Assembly: GCA_025462725.1 (NCBI GenBank)
Contig: JAOAPE010000001.1
Location: 248,001-312,000, forward strand
From: Terriglobales bacterium
Lineage (GTDB): Bacteria; Acidobacteriota; Terriglobia; Terriglobales; Acidobacteriaceae
Length of the DNA: 64,000 nucleotides
Direction of reading: 5' to 3'
Numbering within the stretch: the first letter of the stretch is position 1; each line of letters begins with the position of its first letter. The notes below the pieces were generated by a model. The model did no database searches. It was not told the DNA's origin and saw only the letters and a program-made list of their open reading frames with translations. Made by a program: the position numbers and the translations under genes. Shown piece after piece: positions 25,833 to 46,089 of the stretch.

Positions 25833-28154
25833 TTACGCGATACTCTGCTCGTACAGATGTTTCTGGAAGTCGACGAACATGGCTTTGATCGTAGACACCC
25901 CGCCTAATTCCACTTCCGCATCGGTCAGTGCCTTGTATTTGAGAGTAAGTAAGTCGGGCAGCTTCTCTTGGTCTAACTCTTCAACGCCGCTTTCCACATA
26001 CTTTTGCAGAACGAACTCGACAAATTCCTTCTGCTTCGGCGTCAACGCCGAAAAAATTGCGGCTTTTGCGTTGTTCACCCGCGCTTGACGCGTGATCGGC
26101 GCAACTGCGTACGACACATATTCAAGCACATCGAAGATGTCGCTCTTCTCGGCATTCACTAGCTTTTGCAATGCCGTCAATTCGGACTTCCCATATCCGG
26201 CATCAGCGAGCTTTTGTAGTAAAGCTCTTCGGGTTGCAGGCACTTTCCATATCTTTCGCAGCTCCGCTTCGTTTGAAAAGAACTTCGGCAATTCTCCAAA
26301 CAAGTTCTTCATGAACTGCTCAGCGGATATTGGCCCTTTGGCGCTCCAGTAAGAGACATGCACCATGTGCTGTATCTCAAGCTCTTTGCCCCCACCGAGT
26401 TTCACTTTCACCTTGCGCGGCGGCTCGTCCGGCCCCGGCTCCGGACGTGGTTCTCTCGGTTCCCGCGGTGATCGCGGCTCTTTGGGTTCTCCATCCCCAC
26501 CCGTGGACACATCTACCGGCTCGCCATCCCAATCCGGGTCGGCAAAATGGTGGTAAGCATCTACAAAATCGTAAATCGTGAAAAAGTCTTTGCCGTCGAA
26601 TAAGCGCGTGCCGCGCCCAATGATCTGCTTGAACTCGATCATTGAATTCACACGCCTCATCAGCGCAATATTCCGCACATTTCGCGCGTCCACACCCGTC
26701 GAGAGTTTCTGTGAAGTTGTCAGGATCGTGGGAATGGATTTCTCATTGTCCTGAAATTCCCGCAAGTACTGTTCGCCTAATTCCCCATCGTTAGCAGTCA
26801 CGCGCACACAATAGTTTGGCTCGGCGATGGTCTTGTTCTGGTTTATCAGATCGCGCAGCAGCGCCGCATGCGCCTGAGTTGCACCAAAGACCAGCGTCTT
26901 TTCACTTGGCTCAATGCCGTCTTCTTCTGAAAGTAGAATGCGTACCCGCTTGCGCTCGCGCTCTTCTATTTCAATTGTCCGATTGAAGTCCGGCTCTGTA
27001 TAAAGCTTGCCTTCTTCTATCTCCCCTTCCACCACGTAGTCGTCCGAAGTGTAGAAGTAATCGTCTAGTGTCGTTTTAATCCGTTTTACTTTGAATGGAG
27101 TGAGGAATCCGTCATTGATTCCCTCTTTCAACGAATAGATATAGACGGGCTCGCCAAAGTATTTGTATGTATTTACATTGTCTTCCCGACGCGGAGTTGC
27201 AGTCAGTCCCAACTGCGCGGCGGGGGAGAAGTACTCCATGATCTCCCGCCAGTTGCTTTCATCGTTCGCGCCGCCGCGGTGGCATTCATCAATGACGATG
27301 AAATCGAAGTAGTCCTTAGGATAATCACCAAAGTAAGGTGTCTCATTTGGACCAGACATAAACGTCTGAAAGATGGTGAAGAAGATGCTGCCGTTAGTCG
27401 GCACTCCGCCCTTCTTGCGTATCTCGCTCGGCTTGATTCGCACTAACGCATCTTCGGGAAACGCCGAGAACGCATTGAATGCCTGGTCTGCCAAAATGTT
27501 CCTGTCGGCTAGAAACAGAATCCTCGGCCTCCGTGACCCATCCCGCCGCAAGTTCCATTTCGAATGAAACAGCTTCCATGCGATCTGAAAGGCGATGAAC
27601 GTCTTCCCGGTCCCTGTCGCTAGCGTCAGCAATATGCGTGGCTTCTCTCCCGCTACCGCCTCCATTACGCGGTTAATGGCTATCTCCTGGTAATAGCGTG
27701 ACTTCTTGCTTCCCCCAACGTCCTCATACGGGACATCATCAAACCTCTTCTGCCACTCAAGCTGCTTCCCAAACGTCCGCGGCCACAGCTCGTCCGGAGT
27801 GGGAAAGCGGTCAACTACTCCCTCTTGCCCCGTCCGCATGCAGATCTGGTAAATCTGTTTTCCGTTGGTAGAGTAGGCAGTGGCAAGCTGCATCTTTTCG
27901 GCATAGTTCTTCGCTTGGCCTACGCCTTCGCTCACTTCCTGTTCATTTGATTTGGCTTCGATTACCGCCAGCTTGCGCCCGCGATACGTCAGGATGTAGT
28001 CGGCTATCAGCGGCTTCGCCCGCGTGCCGCCTATCTGGATGCGGCCGTCGTTTATCTTGAACTCGCGAAGCACACGTGCGCCCTCGGTCGAACTCCAGCC
28101 GGCAGCCGCCAGCTTCGGATCGATTAACTCCGCTCGTGTGTCCGCTTCATTCAT
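25833..28154 (-). CDS. hsdR: type I restriction endonuclease subunit R
   Basis: A 773-aa protein. N-terminal nuclease motif: IADYILTYRGRKLAVIEAKSNEQ (D...ExK). SF2 translocase motifs: Walker A LATGTGKTFIAFQ, IVIDECHRGG (DEAH-type box), LGLTATPRRED, and QIIGRGTRLFDGKDFFTIYDF (motif VI). The C-terminal region matches the EcoEI_R_C type. It is shorter than EcoKI HsdR and fits the EcoEI-like group. Between the motor and the C-terminal domain is a Pro/Glu/Arg repeat linker (GEPKEPRSPREPREPRPE). With HsdM and HsdS it would cleave unmethylated foreign DNA after translocation. It lies 21 bp downstream of hsdS, last in the operon. Confidence 0.95.
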   Translation of the reverse strand: MNEADTRAELIDPKLAAAGWSSTEGARVLREFKINDGRIQIGGTRAKPLIADYILTYRGRKLAVIEAKSNEQEVSEGVGQAKNYAEKMQLATAYSTNGKQIYQICMRTGQEGVVDRFPTPDELWPRTFGKQLEWQKRFDDVPYEDVGGSKKSRYYQEIAINRVMEAVAGEKPRILLTLATGTGKTFIAFQIAWKLFHSKWNLRRDGSRRPRILFLADRNILADQAFNAFSAFPEDALVRIKPSEIRKKGGVPTNGSIFFTIFQTFMSGPNETPYFGDYPKDYFDFIVIDECHRGGANDESNWREIMEYFSPAAQLGLTATPRREDNVNTYKYFGEPVYIYSLKEGINDGFLTPFKVKRIKTTLDDYFYTSDDYVVEGEIEEGKLYTEPDFNRTIEIEERERKRVRILLSEEDGIEPSEKTLVFGATQAHAALLRDLINQNKTIAEPNYCVRVTANDGELGEQYLREFQDNEKSIPTILTTSQKLSTGVDARNVRNIALMRRVNSMIEFKQIIGRGTRLFDGKDFFTIYDFVDAYHHFADPDWDGEPVDVSTGGDGEPKEPRSPREPREPRPEPGPDEPPRKVKVKLGGGKELEIQHMVHVSYWSAKGPISAEQFMKNLFGELPKFFSNEAELRKIWKVPATRRALLQKLADAGYGKSELTALQKLVNAEKSDIFDVLEYVSYAVAPITRQARVNNAKAAIFSALTPKQKEFVEFVLQKYVESGVEELDQEKLPDLLTLKYKALTDAEVELGGVSTIKAMFVDFQKHLYEQSIA

Positions 28155-28175
28155 GGGTCTTTCTAGACACTTGGT

Positions 28176-29315
28176 TCAAAGCAGCCCACCCGAAAAGGCC
28201 TTTTGCAAAATTGACTTCTTCAATTCGTCGAGCGAGGCGAGCTTGCGCTTGCTAATCGACTTGAGCTCATCCGCCTCAGTAGAGAGTTCTTTTAATACGG
28301 CGGCGATTCGCAGCTGTTCCTTTACCGGAGGCAAAGAGAAGCCGAATCGGAACAAATACTCTCGATTGACCTTGGGCATGCCTGCGCGTGAAGAACCCAG
28401 GATTGCATATTCAGTGAACCTCTTCGAGATCAGCAGCCAGAAGAGATAGTCATTCATTATTTCCGAGCAACGCGGTACAAGAGGGTAAATATCGGCACTG
28501 CAAAGTCCCTCGAAATCCGGTACAGCCACCTTAACTAGGTATGGCCGGATCTTGCTGTACAACACCACGGGCGGTTTGAAGCAGAACTTCCCGGAAATGA
28601 GCTTTTCCTGACGGGCGCTCCGGAGATTAAACAATCGGCCAGTCTTTGATTCGATGTTGGCAGCCCCCACATGTATCAGATCGAGAAACTCGGAGTTCTT
28701 TGGATCAACGAGCGACGAAGATATTTCACAAACATCCTCGAGAGTTACCGCCTCCCAATCGCTTTTGGGTTGTGCAATTTGTCTATCTATTTCCGAATTC
28801 ACTAGACCATCAGCTGCCTGATAACTTCGCTCCGCGTTCGCCTTGGCTTCGGCAATCGCGGCAAACGCAGCATCCAGCCGCGCCACTATTCGCTGCTGAA
28901 CTGTGCGTGGTGGAAGCGGTAACGGCAATTGTTCAAAGTGTCTGCGCCGTAGCGATTTTGCCGTTGCTCCCACTGCGACCTGCTCGAAATATTTGTGAAA
29001 GTAAATCAAGAACCAATAAATGTATTCAACATCCACGCTGTCTTTGAAACTGTGAAGGGCGTACGCTCTCTGGTGAAGGTCGAATTTGCCCCGAAATAAT
29101 CGAGGAGTGAATTCCTTCCCTTCCCCTGGAACAATCACGGCATCGCAGTCGAATAAGAAGCGCGAGCTGCGTTTAATGATTTTGGAGCGATCAAAGAACG
29201 CGTAAGCACCATCGGCCACAGCTTGGTTGGCATTGGAATCGCCTGTGCTGATTTCGCACAGATTTCCGAGATAGTTCTGCTGCCAAGAGCTAATCACACC
29301 AGCTCCCTTATCCAC
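28176..29315 (-). CDS. hsdS: type I restriction-modification specificity subunit S
   Basis: A 379-aa protein with the usual two-target-domain layout. TRD1 spans about residues 1-140, ending ARSL-like RRRHFEQLPLPLPPRTVQQRIVARLDAAFAAI; the central coiled-coil is about 140-185. TRD2 spans about 185-320, followed by LPPVKEQLRIAAVLKELSTEADELKSISKRKLASLDELKKSILQKAFSG, the second conserved coiled-coil. TRD1 is rather short. The two TRDs set a bipartite recognition site that cannot be read from sequence. The ATG overlaps the hsdM 3' end by 22 bp, indicating translational coupling. Confidence 0.93.
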   Translation of the reverse strand: MDKGAGVISSWQQNYLGNLCEISTGDSNANQAVADGAYAFFDRSKIIKRSSRFLFDCDAVIVPGEGKEFTPRLFRGKFDLHQRAYALHSFKDSVDVEYIYWFLIYFHKYFEQVAVGATAKSLRRRHFEQLPLPLPPRTVQQRIVARLDAAFAAIAEAKANAERSYQAADGLVNSEIDRQIAQPKSDWEAVTLEDVCEISSSLVDPKNSEFLDLIHVGAANIESKTGRLFNLRSARQEKLISGKFCFKPPVVLYSKIRPYLVKVAVPDFEGLCSADIYPLVPRCSEIMNDYLFWLLISKRFTEYAILGSSRAGMPKVNREYLFRFGFSLPPVKEQLRIAAVLKELSTEADELKSISKRKLASLDELKKSILQKAFSGGLL

Positions 29316-30469
29316 TCCAATATCTCCGCGCTCTCTTTATCTAATCGCGCAATCTCATCCAATATCTCTTTCGGGTCGCGCAATGTTGCTTCATCTTTCT
29401 TATGCGGGTTCCGCACCGACAAGTCGAATGTTGCCTCGTCTATCTTTGTGACTTCTACCGTCCAGGAGTCCTCTGAATCCGCCTTAGTCTTCTGCAGCTT
29501 CACGAACTCCGCCAGGTCTTCCTCGGTCAGCGGATACGTCTTCCCCAGGTTCCGCGCGAGATTCAGCTGGTAGTACCAGACCTTGCGGGTCTTTGTCCCC
29601 TTGTCAAAGAAGAGCACCACAGTCTTTACGCCCGCGCCCTGAAAAACTCCGCCTGGCAAGTCCAGCACTGTGTGCAGATTGCAGTCTTCCAGTAACTTCC
29701 TGCGCAGCGCGACTGACGCGTTGTCCGTGTTCGACAAGAACGTGTTCTTAATGACGATGCCCGCCTTGCCGCCCGCCTTCAGCATCCTTATAAAGTGATT
29801 CAGGAACAGGTACGCCGTCTCGCTCGACTTCACATCAAAGTTGCCCTGAACCTCCGGACGCTCGCTGCCCCCAAAAGGCGGATTGGCCAGCACAATGTCA
29901 TGCCGGTCCTTCTCCTGAATGTCTCGCACGTTTTCTGACAGCGTGTTGGTATGCAGGATGTTCGGCGCTTCAATCCCGTGCAGAATCATGTTCATGATTC
30001 CCACGATGTACGCCAGTGACTTCTTCTCTTTGCCATAGAAAGTGTTTTTTTGTAGGGTGTTGTGCTCTTTGGTCGAAATGCCGGGCTTATTCAAATACGC
30101 GTAGGACTCGGCAAGGAAGCCGCAGGAACCACATGCCCCGTCATAAATTGTTTGCCCTATCTTCGGTCCAACAACTTTCACAATCGCCTTGATCAGCGGG
30201 CGCGGCGTGTAATACTCCCCGCCATTCCGTCCGGCGTTCCCCATGTTTTTGATCTTGGTTTCGTACAGATGTGACATCTCGTCTTTTTCAGCCCGCGACT
30301 GAAAAACGCATCTCATCCACCCGCTCGATAACCTCGCGTAGGTTGTAGCCGCTTTGAAATTTGTTTTTAAGTTCCGAGAAGATTTCCCCGATCTTGTATT
30401 CGATCGTTTGCGGGTCTTCCGTGTCCTTCTTGAACTTCCGCAGATAAGGAAACAATTTTCCGTCCACAA
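29294..30469 (-). CDS. hsdM: type I restriction-modification methyltransferase, catalytic part (frameshifted from its N-terminal part)
   Basis: The open frame runs to 30469, but genuine HsdM sequence starts only at about 30294 (FQSRAEKDEMSHLYETKIKNMGNAGRNGGEYYTP); the first 55 or so residues are an out-of-frame reading of the N-terminal domain and look unnatural (Arg/Ser-rich). The N6-adenine methyltransferase motifs are present: motif I TIYDGACGSCGFLAE and motif IV IVLANPPFGG. Joining this frame to the 30288-30746 frame needs removal of one T from a run of five (coding strand) at about 30295-30299 and gives a normal-sized HsdM of about 483 aa. As printed, no single full-length methyltransferase is made unless there is slippage or an internal start (an ATG lies at 30277). 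Confidence 0.88.
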   Translation of the reverse strand: MWTENCFLICGSSRRTRKTRKRSNTRSGKSSRNLKTNFKAATTYARLSSGWMRCVFQSRAEKDEMSHLYETKIKNMGNAGRNGGEYYTPRPLIKAIVKVVGPKIGQTIYDGACGSCGFLAESYAYLNKPGISTKEHNTLQKNTFYGKEKKSLAYIVGIMNMILHGIEAPNILHTNTLSENVRDIQEKDRHDIVLANPPFGGSERPEVQGNFDVKSSETAYLFLNHFIRMLKAGGKAGIVIKNTFLSNTDNASVALRRKLLEDCNLHTVLDLPGGVFQGAGVKTVVLFFDKGTKTRKVWYYQLNLARNLGKTYPLTEEDLAEFVKLQKTKADSEDSWTVEVTKIDEATFDLSVRNPHKKDEATLRDPKEILDEIARLDKESAEILEWIRELV

Positions 30470-33888: not shown

Positions 33889-33914
33889 TGTTCCACGTGG
33901 AACGTTGTGGAAAA
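33889..33914. promoter_or_regulatory. parS site plus adjacent DnaA-box-like site, copy 1
   Basis: TGTTCCACGTGGAACG at 33889-33904 matches the parS consensus TGTTTCACGTGAAACA with the central CACGTG intact. It is followed by TGTGGAAAA (33906-33914). Confidence 0.85.
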
Positions 33915-33975
33915 CTCGGATTTCTGGATCGGGCGTGGTTCCCCGGCAGGCAGATTTTGGTGGAGAATGAGAAAA

Positions 33976-34001
33976 TGTTCCACGTGGAACGTTGTGGAAA
34001 A
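33976..34001. promoter_or_regulatory. parS site plus adjacent DnaA-box-like site, copy 2
   Basis: Same 16-bp parS sequence as copy 1 at 33976-33991, followed by TGTGGAAAA at 33993-34001. It starts 87 bp after copy 1. Confidence 0.85.
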
Positions 34002-34060
34002 GTCCGAATTGCGGCGAATTGGCAATTCTGCCGCCAGATTGGCTGGTGCCGCCCGGATAT

Positions 34061-34086
34061 TGTTCCACGTGGAACACTGTGGAAAA
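34061..34086. promoter_or_regulatory. parS site plus adjacent DnaA-box-like site, copy 3
   Basis: TGTTCCACGTGGAACA at 34061-34076 is a perfect 16-bp palindrome, followed by TGTGGAAAA at 34078-34086. It starts 85 bp after copy 2. Confidence 0.85.
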
Positions 34087-35636: not shown

Positions 35637-35957
35637 TTACCCCGTCACGCTCATAGTTTTTGGAGGAATTGGAGGATCCTGAGTAACTGCAGGAATTGTA
35701 GGAACTGAGTCCGAGGGGGCACTTAACTTTTCCAAGTCCTTCTGGGATTGATTAAAGGCTGTTGTCCATTCCGAGTAGGTCTCTCCCATCAACTTAAAAC
35801 AAGCAATCGTGCGGTAAAGCATGACGATGAATAGCAAGCAAGCTGCGGTGGTCTCGGTATGGCTTACGGTGGCATTCAAAGTGTCTCCGGACCGCATCGT
35901 TCTTAGGTCTTCAACAATCACCACGCACTGAGCAATGACGGCGGTCCACATTATCAA
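35637..35957 (-). CDS. small membrane protein, possibly the displaced C-terminus of the upstream gene
   Basis: A 106-aa frame with two hydrophobic stretches (MIMWTAVIAQCVVIVEDL and TTAACLLFIVMLYRTIACF), an amphipathic linker and a Pro-rich cytosolic tail. The ATG overlaps the stop of the upstream gene by four bases (ATGA), the form expected for translational coupling. However, upstream of this ATG the same frame stays open and reads TPPNLGQEVVRLPSL, more natural than the ARRLSAFPA end of the other frame. A one-base change in a C-run at about 35992-35997 would fuse the two genes into one membrane protein of roughly 340 aa. No family is recognised. Confidence 0.6.
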   Translation of the reverse strand: MIMWTAVIAQCVVIVEDLRTMRSGDTLNATVSHTETTAACLLFIVMLYRTIACFKLMGETYSEWTTAFNQSQKDLEKLSAPSDSVPTIPAVTQDPPIPPKTMSVTG

Positions 35958-36661
35958 GCTGGGAAGGCGGACAACCTCCTGGCCAAGGTTGGGGGGAGTG
36001 GCGGGTTGATCCGGCTAGGAGGCACGGTCAACACTTGCGTCATTGCAAGTAGATCGTAGGCAACCGGTAACTCCTTCAATTCGGCCGCGAAGTCAAAGAC
36101 TTGCCGAATGTTGTCATGCTGGCGGCGCAAGCTGAACTGGAACCAGCTTAAGAGGAAGGTGAAAGTCAATCCAGAAACCAAGCTTAGATCATTAATGTCA
36201 AAAGCAATGCCCAGCACCGGCACAGTGAAAGCCATCACCCTGGTGTTCATGATCTGCTGAAGGTCAGCTTCGTTCTTGCGGGCTTCTGCGAGAGAGAAAT
36301 TCCATTGCCGGATGTAGTTGACGGCGCTGTCGTGGTCGGCCTTGGTCAGCTTTTGGGCGCAGCGATATTCAAAATCCCGGCGGTCGAGTGCATCGTTATG
36401 ACCGCGGGCCGATTCTGTGACAGGCAAGTCCGCTGGCGAAAGCCCTTTGGAGTACACCGATTGCGGTTCGCAGGTCAATATCCAAACCGCATTCTGAGCG
36501 GTGGTGAGGCGAAGTGTGGCCCAGCTCAAGTTTTCCTGTTCCCACGTGGAAGCAAGAACCAGGACCACTCCCAACTGCAACAGAAAAATAATCCAGCGAC
36601 ATCGCTTTGATGCCTCGTCAGCGTAAGTGATAGCTAACTTGGTTTCCTCGGAAATTGCCAT
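35954..36661 (-). CDS. membrane protein of unknown function in the patatin operon
   Basis: A 235-aa protein with a strong ribosome site (GCAGGAGG before the ATG). One membrane segment lies near the N-terminus (WIIFLLQLGVVLVLAS). A long, probably extracytoplasmic, charged region follows (about 40-135, with two Cys), then two segments separated by a short polar stretch (VMAFTVPVLGIAFDI and LVSGLTFTFLLSWFQF). The last residues LARRLSAFPA may be out of frame (see the overlapping gene). It is 41 bp downstream of the patatin-like gene and surely co-transcribed. I do not recognise the family; the constant position suggests it partners the phospholipase. Confidence 0.75.
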   Translation of the reverse strand: MAISEETKLAITYADEASKRCRWIIFLLQLGVVLVLASTWEQENLSWATLRLTTAQNAVWILTCEPQSVYSKGLSPADLPVTESARGHNDALDRRDFEYRCAQKLTKADHDSAVNYIRQWNFSLAEARKNEADLQQIMNTRVMAFTVPVLGIAFDINDLSLVSGLTFTFLLSWFQFSLRRQHDNIRQVFDFAAELKELPVAYDLLAMTQVLTVPPSRINPPLPPTLARRLSAFPA

Positions 36662-36702
36662 GTGAATCCTCCTGCATAAATCTGCGGCTTTATTGAAAGT
36701 GT

Positions 36703-39459
36703 TTAGCGCTGCTCTACTAATTTGACGGCTATAGGAATCCTGATCCGGAACTGGTGCTCGGCGTAAAGCGCCGCGCTACTCACGAATTGGGACAGAGAAG
36801 CTGTGCCTGGAGGCAATTTCATTCTCTTCAATTCCCCGGCCATGTGACGGACGGTGTGGAGACCAAGACTGCGGTAACTTTCAAATTGGGATTCGCTGAA
36901 CCACTGTTCGGTTGTGGGTTGTTGCGGGAACAGCGGATCTGATGAAGCATATTGGGCGACGTCCGCCGGCTCTTCTCCGCAGAGCACTGGTTTGATGTAA
37001 ATCAGCGTACCGACAGTGGCGGCTGTTCCATCAACACAGGGATAATCAATTTTTCCAATTGCGCAGTGCCGGTGGTTAATCTTGCTGGGAAGAGCATCTT
37101 TTTCGAACTCGATCGGGACACCCATGTCGATCCGGATCTTCCTGACTGCATTCCCAAGATCCTCAAAGGTGTAATCTGGATCAGCCCCTGCGTCGACCAC
37201 AATGATGGTTGTGCAACGCCGCAAGACCAATTCATACAGCCCCAAATTTTCGAAGTGTCCGCCGTCTGAAAGATAGATCCACTCCTGGGTGTCGTTTGTT
37301 TGGCCCAAGGCTTCGTCTAGCAGAGGCTTGAAGGCATACTTCGGAGCATTCTTGGACCAGGATTCTCGTCCCACCTCATTTGGATTCGGGAGCCACCATC
37401 CCAAACGGACGTTGAAGAATGTCATTACGGCAGTAAGTATTGGTGAAGAGTTGTAGCCCATGTTCGGACTGGCGGCTGCGCCGGAAATCGCTACCGCCGT
37501 TCCCAAAGTGACACCTCCATCCCCTCCGTATTGGTGTGTTCTTTGGTAGGATCCTCTCGGATCTCCATCCTTCGTTGTAAGCATGCAACTACCGCAGTGC
37601 AATGCAGAAAAAGAAAAGGATTCGGCTTTCCTTTGTTGCCAAGCGAGGTTATCTCCCTTTACCAAGTTCAATGCAGCATTAATCAGGTGAAGAGGTGTTT
37701 CGACAACCGCCGACGAGTCATGTGGCCGGTTGATTCTTGCAAGAGAGATATTGTCAGCTGGATCAAAACCGCTAAACAGGTTTGGGTTTCTCTTTCGCGA
37801 AGCTCCAAGGTATGCCCGAATAAGCCGGTTACGATACATAGAATGAAGCGAAAATTTGTTCACATTCACAAAGCCTGAAGCCAAGAACATTATTCCGAGC
37901 TCAAGAGGCAGGGCTAAAAGAAATGCCAGCACGATATCTACATCTACGCTCTTGACGGCTGCTGCAGCTTCTTGGATCAGAAACTCATTTGCGTAGCACA
38001 AGAACGTGGCCACAACCAATATGCCGACGATACCGAATAGTGGCAGTAGCACAGCAGCGAATTGGCTAAGGGTACTTTGGCCATCCGTCTTGTTGGAAGA
38101 TGTCTTAGAGCTGGCGCCGATCTTACTGGCTATGAATGAAATAACTGCACCGACGCCAGCTATGCTGAACCTAGACTTGAGAGTAGCTATTTGCGGTACC
38201 ATTTTGGCCGCAAAGACAAAAACGACGGTGGCCAACACCAGCCAGAAAATCGTCGCTAAGAGCACATAAGCACCGGAACGCGCCCACCATTCCCGGTCTT
38301 CGTCTTCCGTGAATTTGCTTGTCAAGCCCACCAGTAGTATTCCAACGAAGCCAATGATGCTCATAATGATGGGAACACTAAGGAGGACAAACATTTCAGG
38401 CGAATGCATGAACCCGGGCAGTCGATTGACTGCGGTAGCCGCAACGTAAGCGAGTGTGCCGCCGCAGAGACCTGACACCACTGCCGCAAAAATCGCTTTG
38501 CCGAAATGGCTGGTTCTCTGAAGTGCAGAGGCATTTGCAATTGCGCCGGAAACTCCGGAGGGTTCCTGGACCAGGGCTATGAGCGTTCCAATCGAATGCA
38601 CTAACGCTGCATACATCCAGAAGTATTCGAGGGTGTTCCATTTTCCGCTGAATCCATTGCTGAGATACCAGTAAATTGAAAGCATGACAGCCCAAAGCAA
38701 CAATGGAAGCAGACACCAGGAAAAGTAGGACTTTTCGCCTTTGTTGGAGTTGCCAAATGCCGGCAGGTTTGCAATTGCAAACCGTACCCCCACAATTCCC
38801 GCCAGAGTCCCGAAACCGAGGATGAAGTACAAATAGCTCTCGTCAACTTGTCCCGTATGCAATTTCAAGAGTTCAGCGGCAATGCGCGGAACTAACATGA
38901 TGGTGGTCAAAAGAGGAATGAGAATGAACCAATTCAGGGTCACATTCCGTAATGAAGTTGCAATCAACGTCCAAGTGTCTGCCGAAGTAGCCCCGAGTTG
39001 GGGGCTGAGGTAGTTGCTATATTTTCTTAAGTGCTCCAGGGGCTTAGGCTCGGGAGCGAGAGGATCGCTTGCAGCCGCCGAAAGGTCAGCGATGACTCCA
39101 CTCAACCCCAAACTGTGTTGCTCGCGCCAGCGTGTCAACCATCCACCCAGGAAGCCTCCACCAGAAACCGTGGAGAGATAGTCAATCTGCTTTAGGACGC
39201 CATCGTCCTCTCCGGACAATTGTGCCAGGCCCTGAAGCACACCCAAGCCAAAAGTCGCGCTGCGAATCCCACCGCCTGAAAAACAAATGCCCGATCTCTT
39301 CTGCTTGTTCAAAGAACACAGCAGCGGACTCATCCGCTCGGGAAGGTCTTTCGACCTATTGGGACTTAACGCCTCTGCTTCTTCGCGAAGGACTTGGCTC
39401 AGCGACAGTGGATTGATAACAGCCGCAGTCTTGGAGGAGAACAAATTTTTGACTTTCAA
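36703..39459 (-). CDS. polytopic patatin-like phospholipase
   Basis: A 918-aa protein starting at a TTG at 39459 with AAAGGA upstream. Patatin motifs are split in sequence: the oxyanion loop SGGGIRSAT (61-69) and nucleophile S99 in DYLSTVSGGGFLGGW near the N-terminus, and the catalytic Asp at 732 in YLSDGGHFENLGLYELVLRRC. Between them are nine or ten hydrophobic segments (about 176-531). So the lipase domain is assembled from both ends around a membrane domain, as in other large membrane patatin-like proteins that share the DYLSTVSGGG and DGGHFENLG motifs. The predicted reaction is hydrolysis of membrane phospholipid acyl esters. It is third from the end of a compact operon and its base composition is less skewed than its neighbours. 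Confidence 0.9.
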   Translation of the reverse strand: MKVKNLFSSKTAAVINPLSLSQVLREEAEALSPNRSKDLPERMSPLLCSLNKQKRSGICFSGGGIRSATFGLGVLQGLAQLSGEDDGVLKQIDYLSTVSGGGFLGGWLTRWREQHSLGLSGVIADLSAAASDPLAPEPKPLEHLRKYSNYLSPQLGATSADTWTLIATSLRNVTLNWFILIPLLTTIMLVPRIAAELLKLHTGQVDESYLYFILGFGTLAGIVGVRFAIANLPAFGNSNKGEKSYFSWCLLPLLLWAVMLSIYWYLSNGFSGKWNTLEYFWMYAALVHSIGTLIALVQEPSGVSGAIANASALQRTSHFGKAIFAAVVSGLCGGTLAYVAATAVNRLPGFMHSPEMFVLLSVPIIMSIIGFVGILLVGLTSKFTEDEDREWWARSGAYVLLATIFWLVLATVVFVFAAKMVPQIATLKSRFSIAGVGAVISFIASKIGASSKTSSNKTDGQSTLSQFAAVLLPLFGIVGILVVATFLCYANEFLIQEAAAAVKSVDVDIVLAFLLALPLELGIMFLASGFVNVNKFSLHSMYRNRLIRAYLGASRKRNPNLFSGFDPADNISLARINRPHDSSAVVETPLHLINAALNLVKGDNLAWQQRKAESFSFSALHCGSCMLTTKDGDPRGSYQRTHQYGGDGGVTLGTAVAISGAAASPNMGYNSSPILTAVMTFFNVRLGWWLPNPNEVGRESWSKNAPKYAFKPLLDEALGQTNDTQEWIYLSDGGHFENLGLYELVLRRCTTIIVVDAGADPDYTFEDLGNAVRKIRIDMGVPIEFEKDALPSKINHRHCAIGKIDYPCVDGTAATVGTLIYIKPVLCGEEPADVAQYASSDPLFPQQPTTEQWFSESQFESYRSLGLHTVRHMAGELKRMKLPPGTASLSQFVSSAALYAEHQFRIRIPIAVKLVEQR

Positions 39460-39486
39460 GGGGTGGTCCTTTCTTGATCAGGATGG

Positions 39487-41034
39487 TTAAAAGCCCCGTA
39501 TTTTGGCGACAAGTTTTCCGACATCAAATTTTGTGCCGAAGAGGAATCGCAAATCATCTTTGGCAAAATTCTTGACCACCCCGGATGAGGATGGCGTGCC
39601 TTGGAGTCGAAGGTTGGCGCTGAATCCGATGACCAGCGGTGTGCTGGGCACTTTCAATAACCCCTCCATGCCGGCACGGAGAAGCCGCTTGCGGAAATCC
39701 GTCCCATTCAGAGTCATGGTGGTTTCCAAATTACTGAATCGACCAACAAAGATATCCAGGTGACTGATCAATTCCGGGGCTTGGTTTTCAGTGCTCGCCA
39801 TTTTGTAGTGTCCAAGCCGGACTCCGTAGGCGGAGAAGACGTAAAACCTTTCGTTGCTGACGGGCGTGATCGTAACGCCGGTTGCAGCAGTGGCTCCGGT
39901 AGCGGGCTGCTGGATAGCTTCAGTGGGTGTCTCAAATCCGACCTTTGCCAAGGGCGCGATGAAAAGGCCGTTGGGCGCACCGTTGTATTCCCATCGGGCG
40001 GTGACCACGGGAAAATAGGCTCCCATTTGGAAGAGCGCAGCCTTTCTGGAAACCAGGAAGGAATCGAGCGAAGCGGCGGTGTTGTTTGTGGAGCTACCTC
40101 CAGTGCCTGTTCCGCCGCTCGCATTGTCGGTCACAGCAACGGGCACGGCGGTCAGCCTTGATTCGAAGAAAGTATTGATGCCCACGGGGGAGCCAGTTGT
40201 TTCGGCAGAATCGTTCTTAAGCCTTCTCCAGGTCTTGTCCAAACTGAAAGAGAGAAAAAGATCTTGTTTGGAAAAGCTTTCGCGTTCGCGGGAACTCAAA
40301 ATGCCAGAGGTGAAATACGCCCTTACTCGACCCCAATCGGTGAGTGAAACAACTTGTGTTACAGGTGAACTGACGACCTTCGTTACTCCGGGCGCGGGAT
40401 TGCTCAAGGCTTGCTGTACGGAGATCGCTTGACCGGCGTTCAAAGGGTTAGCGAGTTCTACAGAAAAGAAGCCGTTGGAGTCGGTGGTCAACGAAGCACT
40501 CGGATTCTTTAGATCCGCGGCAACGCCGTCAACCATCACGCGGACCTTGGTCTCATTACCATTGGCGCCAGAAGTGGTGGGAGTAGCCAATCCACTGAGC
40601 GTAGTGACCCCTTCCGAGACCCTAGTGATGATCCTGGCATCGACCGACTGAACACCTGGGTTGGCGCCCGCGACTTGCGCAACGGGGTAATCAGTGGAAA
40701 CAACAATCTTGTAAACGGTGGAAGAAATCTCAGTGGAATCGGAGTCGAGAACCTTAACGGTGAATTGAAAGCCGTCCGGCTTGGCCTGAGTAGGACGGCC
40801 ACTCAACACGCCGGTGTTGTCCAAAGTGAGCCCGTTCGGCAGCGTGGCCTTATCAACTTCGTAAGTGACAGGACCAATGATCTGATCCTTCTTGCGCTTG
40901 GCACCATAGGTCAGGCGGATTCCATAGTCTTGCTTAAGGCTGGCTGGATTCAGAGGTATGGCATCGTCTGCGAACGACGATATAGAAAAGGTCAAACAAA
41001 GTACGAGAACGAGCAGGGGGGACTTTCTATTCAT
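39487..41034 (-). CDS. exported Ig-like/beta-barrel surface protein, first gene of the patatin operon
   Basis: A 515-aa protein with a signal peptide (SPLLVLVLCLTFSISSFA) and a ribosome site (GAGGAAAT before ATG). Residues about 25-125 form a putative Ig domain with the motif LPNGLTLDNTGVLSGRPTQ. A second beta-rich region follows (about 130-225, SGANGNETKVRVMVDGVAADL). From about 235 the sequence alternates polar and hydrophobic residues in short strands separated by turns (RVRAYFTSGILSSR..., ERFYVFSAYGVRLGHYK, HLDIFVGRFSNLETTM, LRFLFGTKFDVGKLVAKIRGF), and ends with an aromatic residue, as in outer-membrane barrels. It likely sits in the outer membrane and pairs with the inner-membrane patatin gene 27 bp downstream. 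Confidence 0.78.
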   Translation of the reverse strand: MNRKSPLLVLVLCLTFSISSFADDAIPLNPASLKQDYGIRLTYGAKRKKDQIIGPVTYEVDKATLPNGLTLDNTGVLSGRPTQAKPDGFQFTVKVLDSDSTEISSTVYKIVVSTDYPVAQVAGANPGVQSVDARIITRVSEGVTTLSGLATPTTSGANGNETKVRVMVDGVAADLKNPSASLTTDSNGFFSVELANPLNAGQAISVQQALSNPAPGVTKVVSSPVTQVVSLTDWGRVRAYFTSGILSSRERESFSKQDLFLSFSLDKTWRRLKNDSAETTGSPVGINTFFESRLTAVPVAVTDNASGGTGTGGSSTNNTAASLDSFLVSRKAALFQMGAYFPVVTARWEYNGAPNGLFIAPLAKVGFETPTEAIQQPATGATAATGVTITPVSNERFYVFSAYGVRLGHYKMASTENQAPELISHLDIFVGRFSNLETTMTLNGTDFRKRLLRAGMEGLLKVPSTPLVIGFSANLRLQGTPSSSGVVKNFAKDDLRFLFGTKFDVGKLVAKIRGF

Positions 41035-41701: not shown

Positions 41702-42099
41702 GGGATTTGTGATTGGTGATTTGTAATAGGTGATTGAACGTCAAAAGCAAAGGCTTGCCACGGAATTCACGGATGGCACGGATTTGCAGGAAGAAGGTAT
41801 CGATAGAACGGTAGTACGGGCGTAGGTTTGACCAAAATCTGCTAAACACGTTAGAATTGTTGGAGTTTGTCTGTTCTGCGTGTCCTCTTCAGGGGGGCTG
41901 CCGTGGTCGGCGCGGACGGGAGGAATTCCCGCGCATCCGATACATCCGATAGGAATCAGCAAGCGCAATTTCAAATAAGATTCGCCTGACATAAGTGCGC
42001 GGCGTTCTAGTGCAAGCGCGTAATCCATCTGCATGAAGCAATGGAGCAGGTACGTTGGCTCGATGCGACGGCTTGAAAGTCAGAAGCGACGGAGGTTTT
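41702..42099. other. 398-bp region upstream of rplU
   Basis: Contains a repeat phrase (CAAAGGCTTGCCACGGAATTCACGGATGGCACGGATTTG, about 41748-41786) and then unique sequence. The promoter and any L21 leader of the rplU-rpmA-obgE group must lie here; I cannot define it. The minus-strand frame at 41889-42308 overlaps rplU and looks spurious. Confidence 0.4.
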
Positions 42100-43218: not shown

Positions 43219-44505
43219 ATGTTCATTGATGAAGCAAGAATTCGGGTTTATGCGGGTGGTGGCGGAAACGGGTGCATGGCGTTCCGCAGGGAGAAGTTCG
43301 TTCCGCGCGGTGGGCCGAGCGGCGGCGATGGTGGCAGGGGCGGCGATATCGTCATGGAATCGAGCGAGCGGCACAACACGCTCGTCCACTTCCGATTTAA
43401 TCCTGAGTACAAAGCGCAGCGCGGACGCCACGGCGAAGGATCGAACTGCACGGGAAAAGACGGCGAAGGCATTGTGCTGAAGGTTCCGGTGGGGACGATT
43501 GTTTATGACGATGTGACCGGCGCGGTGGTGCATGATTTTTCGCGTCCTGATGACAGGATGATCATTGCGCGCGGTGGACGTGGCGGGCGCGGCAACCAGC
43601 ATTTTGCGACGGCGACACACCAGGCGCCGCAGGAGCATGAGGCGGGGCGTCCGGGAGAAGAGCGGATGCTGCGGCTGGAGTTGAAGCTGCTGGCGGATGT
43701 GGGGCTGGTGGGGTATCCGAACGTGGGGAAGTCGACGTTGATATCGAGAATATCGGCGGCGCGGCCGAAGATAGCGGATTACGAGTTCACGACGTTGCAG
43801 CCGAACCTCGGCGTAGTAACGATCGGCGAGATGCCGGACCAGGAAAGTTATGTAGTCGCGGATATTCCCGGGTTGATCGAGGGAGCACACGAAGGACATG
43901 GACTCGGCGTTCAATTCTTGCGGCACATTGAGCGAACGCGATTGCTCGTTCACCTGGTGGACGTGAGCGATGCGAGTGGGCGCCCGGATCCGGTGAAAGA
44001 TTTTGAAGTGATCATGGCGGAGCTCTCGAGCTTTGGCGCGGGCCTTGATGAAAAGCCGATGATCGTGGCGGGCGCGAAGATCGATGTTGCAAATAAGGAA
44101 AAGCTGGCGAAGCTGCAAAAGTATTGCGATAAGCGTGGGTATCCGTTTATTGGGATCAGCGCGGTGTCGGGCGAGAACATTAACAAGCTGAAGTGGCAGG
44201 TTGGGGCGATCGTACGGCAGATGCGGCAAGGAAGTTATGAGGGCCCGAAACCGAAATCGCTGCGGTTGCGTGGTTCAGAGGTTGCGAAGCCTGCGGTGAA
44301 AAAGGCTGTAGCGAAAAAAGCCGTTGCGAAGAAGAAGGTTGCAAAAGCACCAGCGAAAAAGGCAGCGAATCAGCAGAAGAGTGCGAACAAACGGGTGTCG
44401 CAGTCGCGGAGAGCGCAGACGGCGAGGCCGTCGGCGGGTAGGAAGAAAGCTACTGCGGCGAGGCCGAAGAAAAAGTTGTCCGGGAAGCAGAGGGCGAGAA
44501 GATAG
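43219..44505 (+). CDS. obgE: ribosome-assembly GTPase Obg with Lys-rich tail
   Basis: A 428-aa protein. The Obg fold (1-158) has its glycine-rich stretch [33 protein letters not shown]. The G domain shows G1 GYPNVGKST (166-173), switch [10 protein letters not shown]3 DIPGLIEG (215-222) and G5 ISAVSGEN. The G4 motif reads GAKID (285-289) instead of NKxD, with Ala at the usual Asn. Residues about 350-428 are a Lys/Ala/Arg tail ([20 protein letters not shown]...) replacing the optional C-terminal domain. Obg binds the 50S subunit and links GTP level to ribosome assembly. The gene follows rplU-rpmA, its usual partners. Confidence 0.96.
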
Positions 44506-44535
44506 TAGTCAGTAGCAAGTAGTCAGTAGTCAGGG

Positions 44536-44566
44536 AAAGCTCAACGCATTCGCGTTGGGCTTTTTT
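44536..44566 (+). terminator. rho-independent terminator after obgE
   Basis: 11-bp stem AAGCTCAACGC/GCGTTGGGCTT (one G-T pair), 4-base loop ATTC, then a run of T. It follows a TAGTCAGTAG hexamer run that starts at the obgE stop. Confidence 0.85.
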
Positions 44567-45626: not shown

Positions 45627-46089
45627 TCGTATAAATCAGAACACTAATGGGGGATTTAGGAAAGATAAATGCGGCGAGGATCCCAGGGCTAAAGCCCAGC
45701 TTTTCTATCGATGCCGCTGCGCGGCGAAGTGATTGTGTCGCGCCTCTGGCGCTCTGCCTTTTTGATTGTCTATACCCGCCCTTACGGGCGGGGCTATTTC
45801 CTTTCGCGCCGCTGGCGCTCGCGTTCGTATTGCGGTGCCGCGACGCGGCAGATTGAAAATGCATAGATCCTTCGACTTCGCTGCGCTCCGCTCAGGATGA
45901 CAATTCGAAATTGTAAGCTTGTGCATCAGGATTGCAGACGAAGCAGGTGCAGATTCCTCGCTGCGCTCCGAATGACCAACAATCGTTGGTGCAAGCTGAT
46001 TGCAGATTGATAGGGGTCCCTCGTCGCGCTTGCAGCGCTCGCTCGGGATGACAAATTAATGGGGTTGCGGGTGACCACTGCTCTGATAC
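45627..46089. repeat. 463-bp intergenic repeat block
   Basis: No gene is seen. It has a CCAGGGCTAAAGCCCAGCTTTT element (about 45681-45702), a CCCGCCCTTACGGGCGGGGC hairpin (about 45777-45796), an ATGCATAGATCCTTCGACTTCG...CAGGATGACA copy (45859-45902), and a GGGGTCCCTCGTCGCGCTTGCAGCGCTCGCTCGGGATGACA copy (about 46013-46053). Confidence 0.65.

Follow-up and report, generated by a model that had tools for sequence, protein, structure and literature searches.

Four minus-strand reading frames at 35637–41034 of the window (the whole 64,000-nucleotide stretch of DNA that was analysed) probably form a locally acquired operon, in which the identifiable enzyme is an inner-membrane lipase whose domain is split by an insert of ten helices. 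On this reading the neighbouring genes are not shown to act with the lipase, and the set was assembled once. The layout given in the preliminary description, with gaps of 27 and 41 bp followed by a 4-bp overlap, was confirmed. The frames and the features within them, in order of transcription, are as follows:

39487–41034, minus strand: exported protein of 515 aa, with a putative signal peptide, an Ig-type He_PIG domain (aa 38–112), a linker and a C-terminal beta-rich (barrel-like) domain of ~285 aa belonging to an unnamed Terriglobia family; the barrel fold is suggested by sequence pattern only
36703–39459, minus strand: polytopic patatin/cPLA2-like lipase of 918 aa, with the oxyanion motif SGGGIRS (61–67), the nucleophile S99 in STVSGGG, ten predicted helices (aa 173–527) and D732 in SDGGHFENLG
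37879–38943, minus strand: segment of the lipase gene that encodes the predicted membrane insert of ten helices (aa 173–527), between Ser and Asp, from alignment-averaged hydropathy of 9 homologues
35954–36661, minus strand: membrane protein of 235 aa, with two predicted helices flanking a soluble segment; no relative found
35991–35996, minus strand: C6 run within the 60 bp over which the two small frames are both open; a slip of one base here would join the frames
35637–35957, minus strand: 106-aa frame with two predicted helices, lying in frame -1 relative to the 235-aa gene; either a gene of its own, coupled to that one, or the second half of a 341-aa protein

The starts of the 515-, 918- and 235-aa frames are preceded at normal spacing by the ribosome-binding-like sequences GAGGA, AAGGA and GGAGG, respectively, and the 918-aa lipase frame begins with TTG. 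The four genes are probably co-transcribed.

Catalytic motifs and membrane insert of the lipase

The 918-aa product had been described as a polytopic patatin-like protein with Ser and Asp motifs, and this description holds. It matches Pfam Patatin (PF01734) above the cut-off (E 1.1e-6; 29.4 bits against 27.7), though over aa 58–112 only, corresponding to the first quarter of the profile, because the lipase domain is interrupted. A match to Pfam PLA2_B (E 0.1) falls below the cut-off. In an alignment of the window protein with eight acidobacterial and verrucomicrobial relatives, 40–45% identical, all nine homologues keep the motifs SGGGIRS, STVSGGG and SDGGHFENLG, with one Ile-to-Leu change in the first. 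The motifs by which the superfamily is recognised are present, namely a glycine-rich oxyanion stretch, a Ser nucleophile (TVS99GGG) and an Asp in D732GG; lipase activity is predicted from these motifs and the family.

Averaged over the nine homologues, hydropathy predicts exactly ten helices between Ser and Asp. This even number would bring the halves that carry Ser and Asp to a common side of the membrane, a requirement for a split domain whose two catalytic residues have to be on one side. Both halves are predicted to be cytosolic, the side favoured by loop charges: Lys and Arg are richer in the even-numbered loops in seven of the nine homologues, the two that break the pattern carry insertions of 103 and 159 aa in an outer loop, and the window lipase itself shows almost no difference between even and odd loops (9 vs 8). 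The lipase would be a patatin/cPLA2-type core with a ten-helix membrane insert between its catalytic Ser and Asp; the motifs and helix count are read from the sequence, and the assembly of the two halves is predicted.

The AlphaFold model of the lipase, built from only 9 sequences, has a mean pLDDT of 50, and residues 518–744, which include D732, fall under 50. In this low-confidence model, residues 48–895 (both halves) align to human cPLA2-delta and cPLA2-alpha at Z 16.3 and 15.3, against Z 10–11 for patatin, CapV and CapE and Z 7 or less for unrelated entries. To the extent that such a model can be relied upon, the halves together appear closer to human cPLA2 (Z 15–16) than to patatin (Z 10). 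A plain Foldseek search with the model gave no significant match, and a PDB sequence search with the lipase gave no match.

Group IV cPLA2 shares with the lipase the SGGGxR oxyanion stretch, the Ser nucleophile and the dyad Asp, and the low-confidence model aligns to it over both halves, but in the window lipase the insert between Ser and Asp is made of ten predicted membrane helices, whereas eukaryotic group IV cPLA2 enzymes are soluble. Patatin-like phospholipases (PF01734; e.g., CapV and CapE) have in common with it the Pfam Patatin match and the Ser/Asp dyad motifs, and differ in that the window domain is interrupted by the membrane insert. The lipase is a member of the databank group named “patatin-like phospholipase family protein” of ~900–1200 aa, as exemplified by Azospirillum WP_111069335.1 (38% identity, same length class), although the neighbouring genes are different. 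A search of the accessible literature on membrane-inserted bacterial patatins returned no functional description of this family. Type Vd autotransporters (PlpD/FplA) combine a patatin domain and a barrel in one exported chain with a POTRA domain. The pairing of patatin domain and barrel recalls the window operon, but identity with this class was rejected: the lipase and the barrel-like protein are encoded by separate genes, and the lipase has membrane helices, no barrel and no signal peptide.

The neighbouring genes of the operon

The 515-aa product, originally proposed to be an exported protein with Ig-like and barrel-like parts, bears an Ig-type He_PIG domain (E 3e-10) and a signal-peptide-like N-terminus. 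Its family, with members in 7 of 299 genomes from its own class, Terriglobia, is defined by the conserved C-terminal ~285 residues. The N-terminal part varies by member: the window protein has an Ig domain there, L052 a repeat rich in Ala, Glu and Lys, and L061 a weak match to TPR. The same unnamed beta-rich C-terminal domain (DWGRVRAYF...DDLRFLFGVRFD), with changing N-terminal parts, is seen in the Terriglobia loci L050, L051, L052, L053 and L061. No Pfam model covers this domain or gives a barrel match in the seven proteins scanned. The single-sequence structure model of the 515-aa protein is poor (pLDDT 32), and a PDB sequence search with it gave a weak light-chain match only. In the barrel-family loci inspected in detail, no lipase lies within about 8 kb.

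Downstream of the lipase, “one or two” small membrane proteins had been described, and of these the 235-aa frame stands, with its GGAGG site, while separate-gene status of the 106-aa frame is not proven. The latter has no ribosome-binding site upstream of its start and is open in its own frame only from position 36014. Its codon score (0.02) is near that of the lipase (0.035) but inside the range of spurious ORFs, and it may be a chance frame. The two frames may be two genes coupled by stop-restart, or they may be one four-helix protein of 341 aa whose reading frame is broken by a change of one base or a -1 slip. Searches for relatives of the small membrane genes in 299 and 120 genomes and in plasmids found none, and neither did an ND-motif scan of neighbouring proteins. 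In the Sinorhizobium plasmid locus L164 (2112–6932), a lipase relative is followed 3 bp later by a 238-aa membrane protein, a layout like that of the window's 235-aa gene, although the two proteins have no visible sequence similarity. The membrane proteins beside the lipases of L018 and L164, considered as candidate relatives of the small genes, look unrelated in a comparison by eye only.

Setting of the block and distribution of the lipase family

The less polarised strand composition noted earlier, and its hint at acquisition, are borne out. GC skew is about 0 across 35.6–41 kb and about +0.24 on both sides, and the adjoining oppD-like gene, on the same strand as the block, retains the skew of the flanks. 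Every housekeeping gene of the window has a higher codon score than the lipase and the two small frames, and the barrel gene scores at the low end. The block is situated between the oppD-like gene, which adjoins ParA/ParB, and PQ-loop, rplU, rpmA and obg genes (obg and rpmA being identified by sequence). Genomes of the same genus and family have these flanks (oppD; rplU–obg) next to other genes or on separate contigs. No lipase was found in the four same-genus genomes searched, an absence that is not firm because these genomes are 71–84% complete. No tRNA, clear direct repeats or integrase was recognised at the locus as an insertion junction. Composition, together with absence beside the same genes in relatives, suggests that the four-gene block was locally acquired.

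The position beside ParAB and parS and near a type I restriction-modification operon was likewise confirmed. Three parS-like sites (TGTTCCACGTGGAAC[AG]), about 86 bp apart and each followed by TTTTCCACA on the other strand, occur at 33889–34076; they adjoin parA where GC skew changes sign, and none of 100 shuffles gave three matches. The hsdR-hsdS-hsdM operon at 25833–30469 adjoins parB, and the codon usage of hsdS is also atypical. It lies ~5 kb from the block, with parB, parA and the oppD-like gene in between. Short interspersed repeats (~37–50 bp) at 41741–41790 and 44500–44542 recur in the window, and in genomes of the same genus they also lie close to several genes (loci L135, L136, L139 and L141). 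An Acido-Lenti-1 RNA match at 45774–45819 exceeds the gathering score of Rfam.

Matches to the lipase family turned up in 26 of the 297 Acidobacteriota genomes sampled and, counting the window's own genome, in 5 of 41 near relatives. The family is also found in Verrucomicrobiota, in Pseudomonadota (Betaproteobacteria among them), in Bacteroidota, and on 40 plasmids, most of them from rhizobia and related bacteria. No relative was present in phage records or viral contigs, and a prophage or viral origin was rejected on these grounds. In the tree, the window lipase sits on a long branch, grouped weakly with two Acidobacteriota sequences (L018 and L025), while the lipases of same-family genomes (G018, G146 and G169) fall in a distant clade. 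Judged from its sequences, the family has the tree and distribution pattern of a patchily transferred gene, and the window lipase belongs to a membrane-inserted branch of the patatin/cPLA2 superfamily that is widespread and seems not to have been described.

The genes around the various lipase loci have almost nothing in common. Of 45 neighbour proteins that were scanned, GMC oxidoreductases alone come up repeatedly (in three), and this points to a possible link of the lipase relatives to lipid or alcohol oxidation. Genes for GMC oxidoreductases lie near polytopic lipase relatives in L018, L025, L092 and L133, and L018 also has an adjacent GDPD-type gene. On a Bradyrhizobium plasmid (L167, 164–6170), a Mov34/MPN protein and a second patatin of shorter length come a short way before a distant polytopic lipase.

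Possible roles of the lipase and its neighbours

In the reading we favour, the ten-helix insert would hold the lipase active site at the inner leaflet, where, judging by the family, the Ser–Asp dyad would hydrolyse or transfer acyl chains of membrane lipids. The upstream gene would supply an exported Ig-plus-barrel-like surface protein, and the downstream frames one or two small membrane proteins of undefined role, probably co-transcribed with the lipase.

There is nearly an even chance that the enzyme is a stand-alone membrane lipase for lipid remodelling or catabolism, to which the operon neighbours are accidental passengers. The unrelated neighbourhoods of its relatives, with GMC oxidoreductases as the only recurring family and the GDPD-type gene beside one lipase, are in keeping with such a role. 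A precedent is PlaF of Pseudomonas aeruginosa, a single-pass phospholipase A in the cytoplasmic membrane that acts in membrane remodelling (PMC9132575); the comparison is one of working principle, a phospholipase A held in the cytoplasmic membrane, and implies no family relation. The patchy presence of the family (26 of 297 genomes) would be unusual for a housekeeping role, however, and the tight operon spacing suggests co-expression of the lipase with its neighbours, which counts against a passenger status for them.

The preliminary description had put forward an envelope-spanning module, in which a receptor or exporter of the outer membrane, a lipase of the inner membrane and an accessory regulator or immunity protein act together. 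Such a module would fit the tight operon with its good ribosome-binding sites and the atypical composition common to its genes, and its relatives might have escaped notice in a lineage too sparsely sequenced. Indeed, none of the genomes searched yielded a lipase relative above about 45% identity overall, which may mean that the operon's lineage has not been sampled. Gene-neighbourhood conservation, the check that had been recommended, speaks against it: about 38 lipase loci contain no relative of the barrel-like or small membrane genes, the barrel family occurs without a nearby lipase, and the small genes are without relatives. A conserved lipase module was rejected on the basis of these lipase and barrel-family loci. 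As far as the data reach, the genes occur independently of each other, which the preliminary description had named as grounds for abandoning the module. A true module is thus unlikely, and a joint envelope-spanning function of the four proteins is not supported. As far as sequence comparison can tell, the four-gene set was assembled once in this lineage and is not a conserved system.

It is very improbable that the lipase is a membrane-damaging effector in phage defence or competition, akin to CapV or CapE of CBASS, with a partner protein as sensor or immunity factor. The patatin fold is common to CapV and CapE (Z 10–11, low-confidence model), the type I restriction-modification operon is 5 kb away, and the arrangement on the Bradyrhizobium plasmid is reminiscent of CBASS. 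Against this, the four proteins have no match in PADLOC, and the flanking genes are others (parA, oppD-like, PQ-loop protein, rplU, rpmA and obg) that include no nucleotide cyclase or defence gene. The sole recurring neighbour family is metabolic, and no phage carries a relative of the lipase. Identification as a CBASS lipase effector was rejected because there is neither a PADLOC match nor a cyclic-nucleotide synthase among the flanking genes, and a defence system in general was rejected for want of a PADLOC match. No link to regulation, immunity or defence was found either, the restriction genes lying beyond parB, parA and the oppD-like gene. There is also only a slim chance of a transport-coupled lipase, in which the ten-helix insert would be a flippase- or scramblase-like feeder bringing outer-leaflet or foreign lipids, via the barrel partner, to a cytosolic cPLA2-like site.

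The four-gene set has been seen in one genome only, which keeps this neighbourhood from being named a new system. The lipase, in contrast, represents a family that spans several bacterial phyla and for which no described member was found. A catalytic domain that is interrupted by ten membrane helices and still comes together on a single side of the membrane would be an uncommon build for a membrane enzyme, and it is this architecture that makes the lipase the part of the locus worth pursuing.
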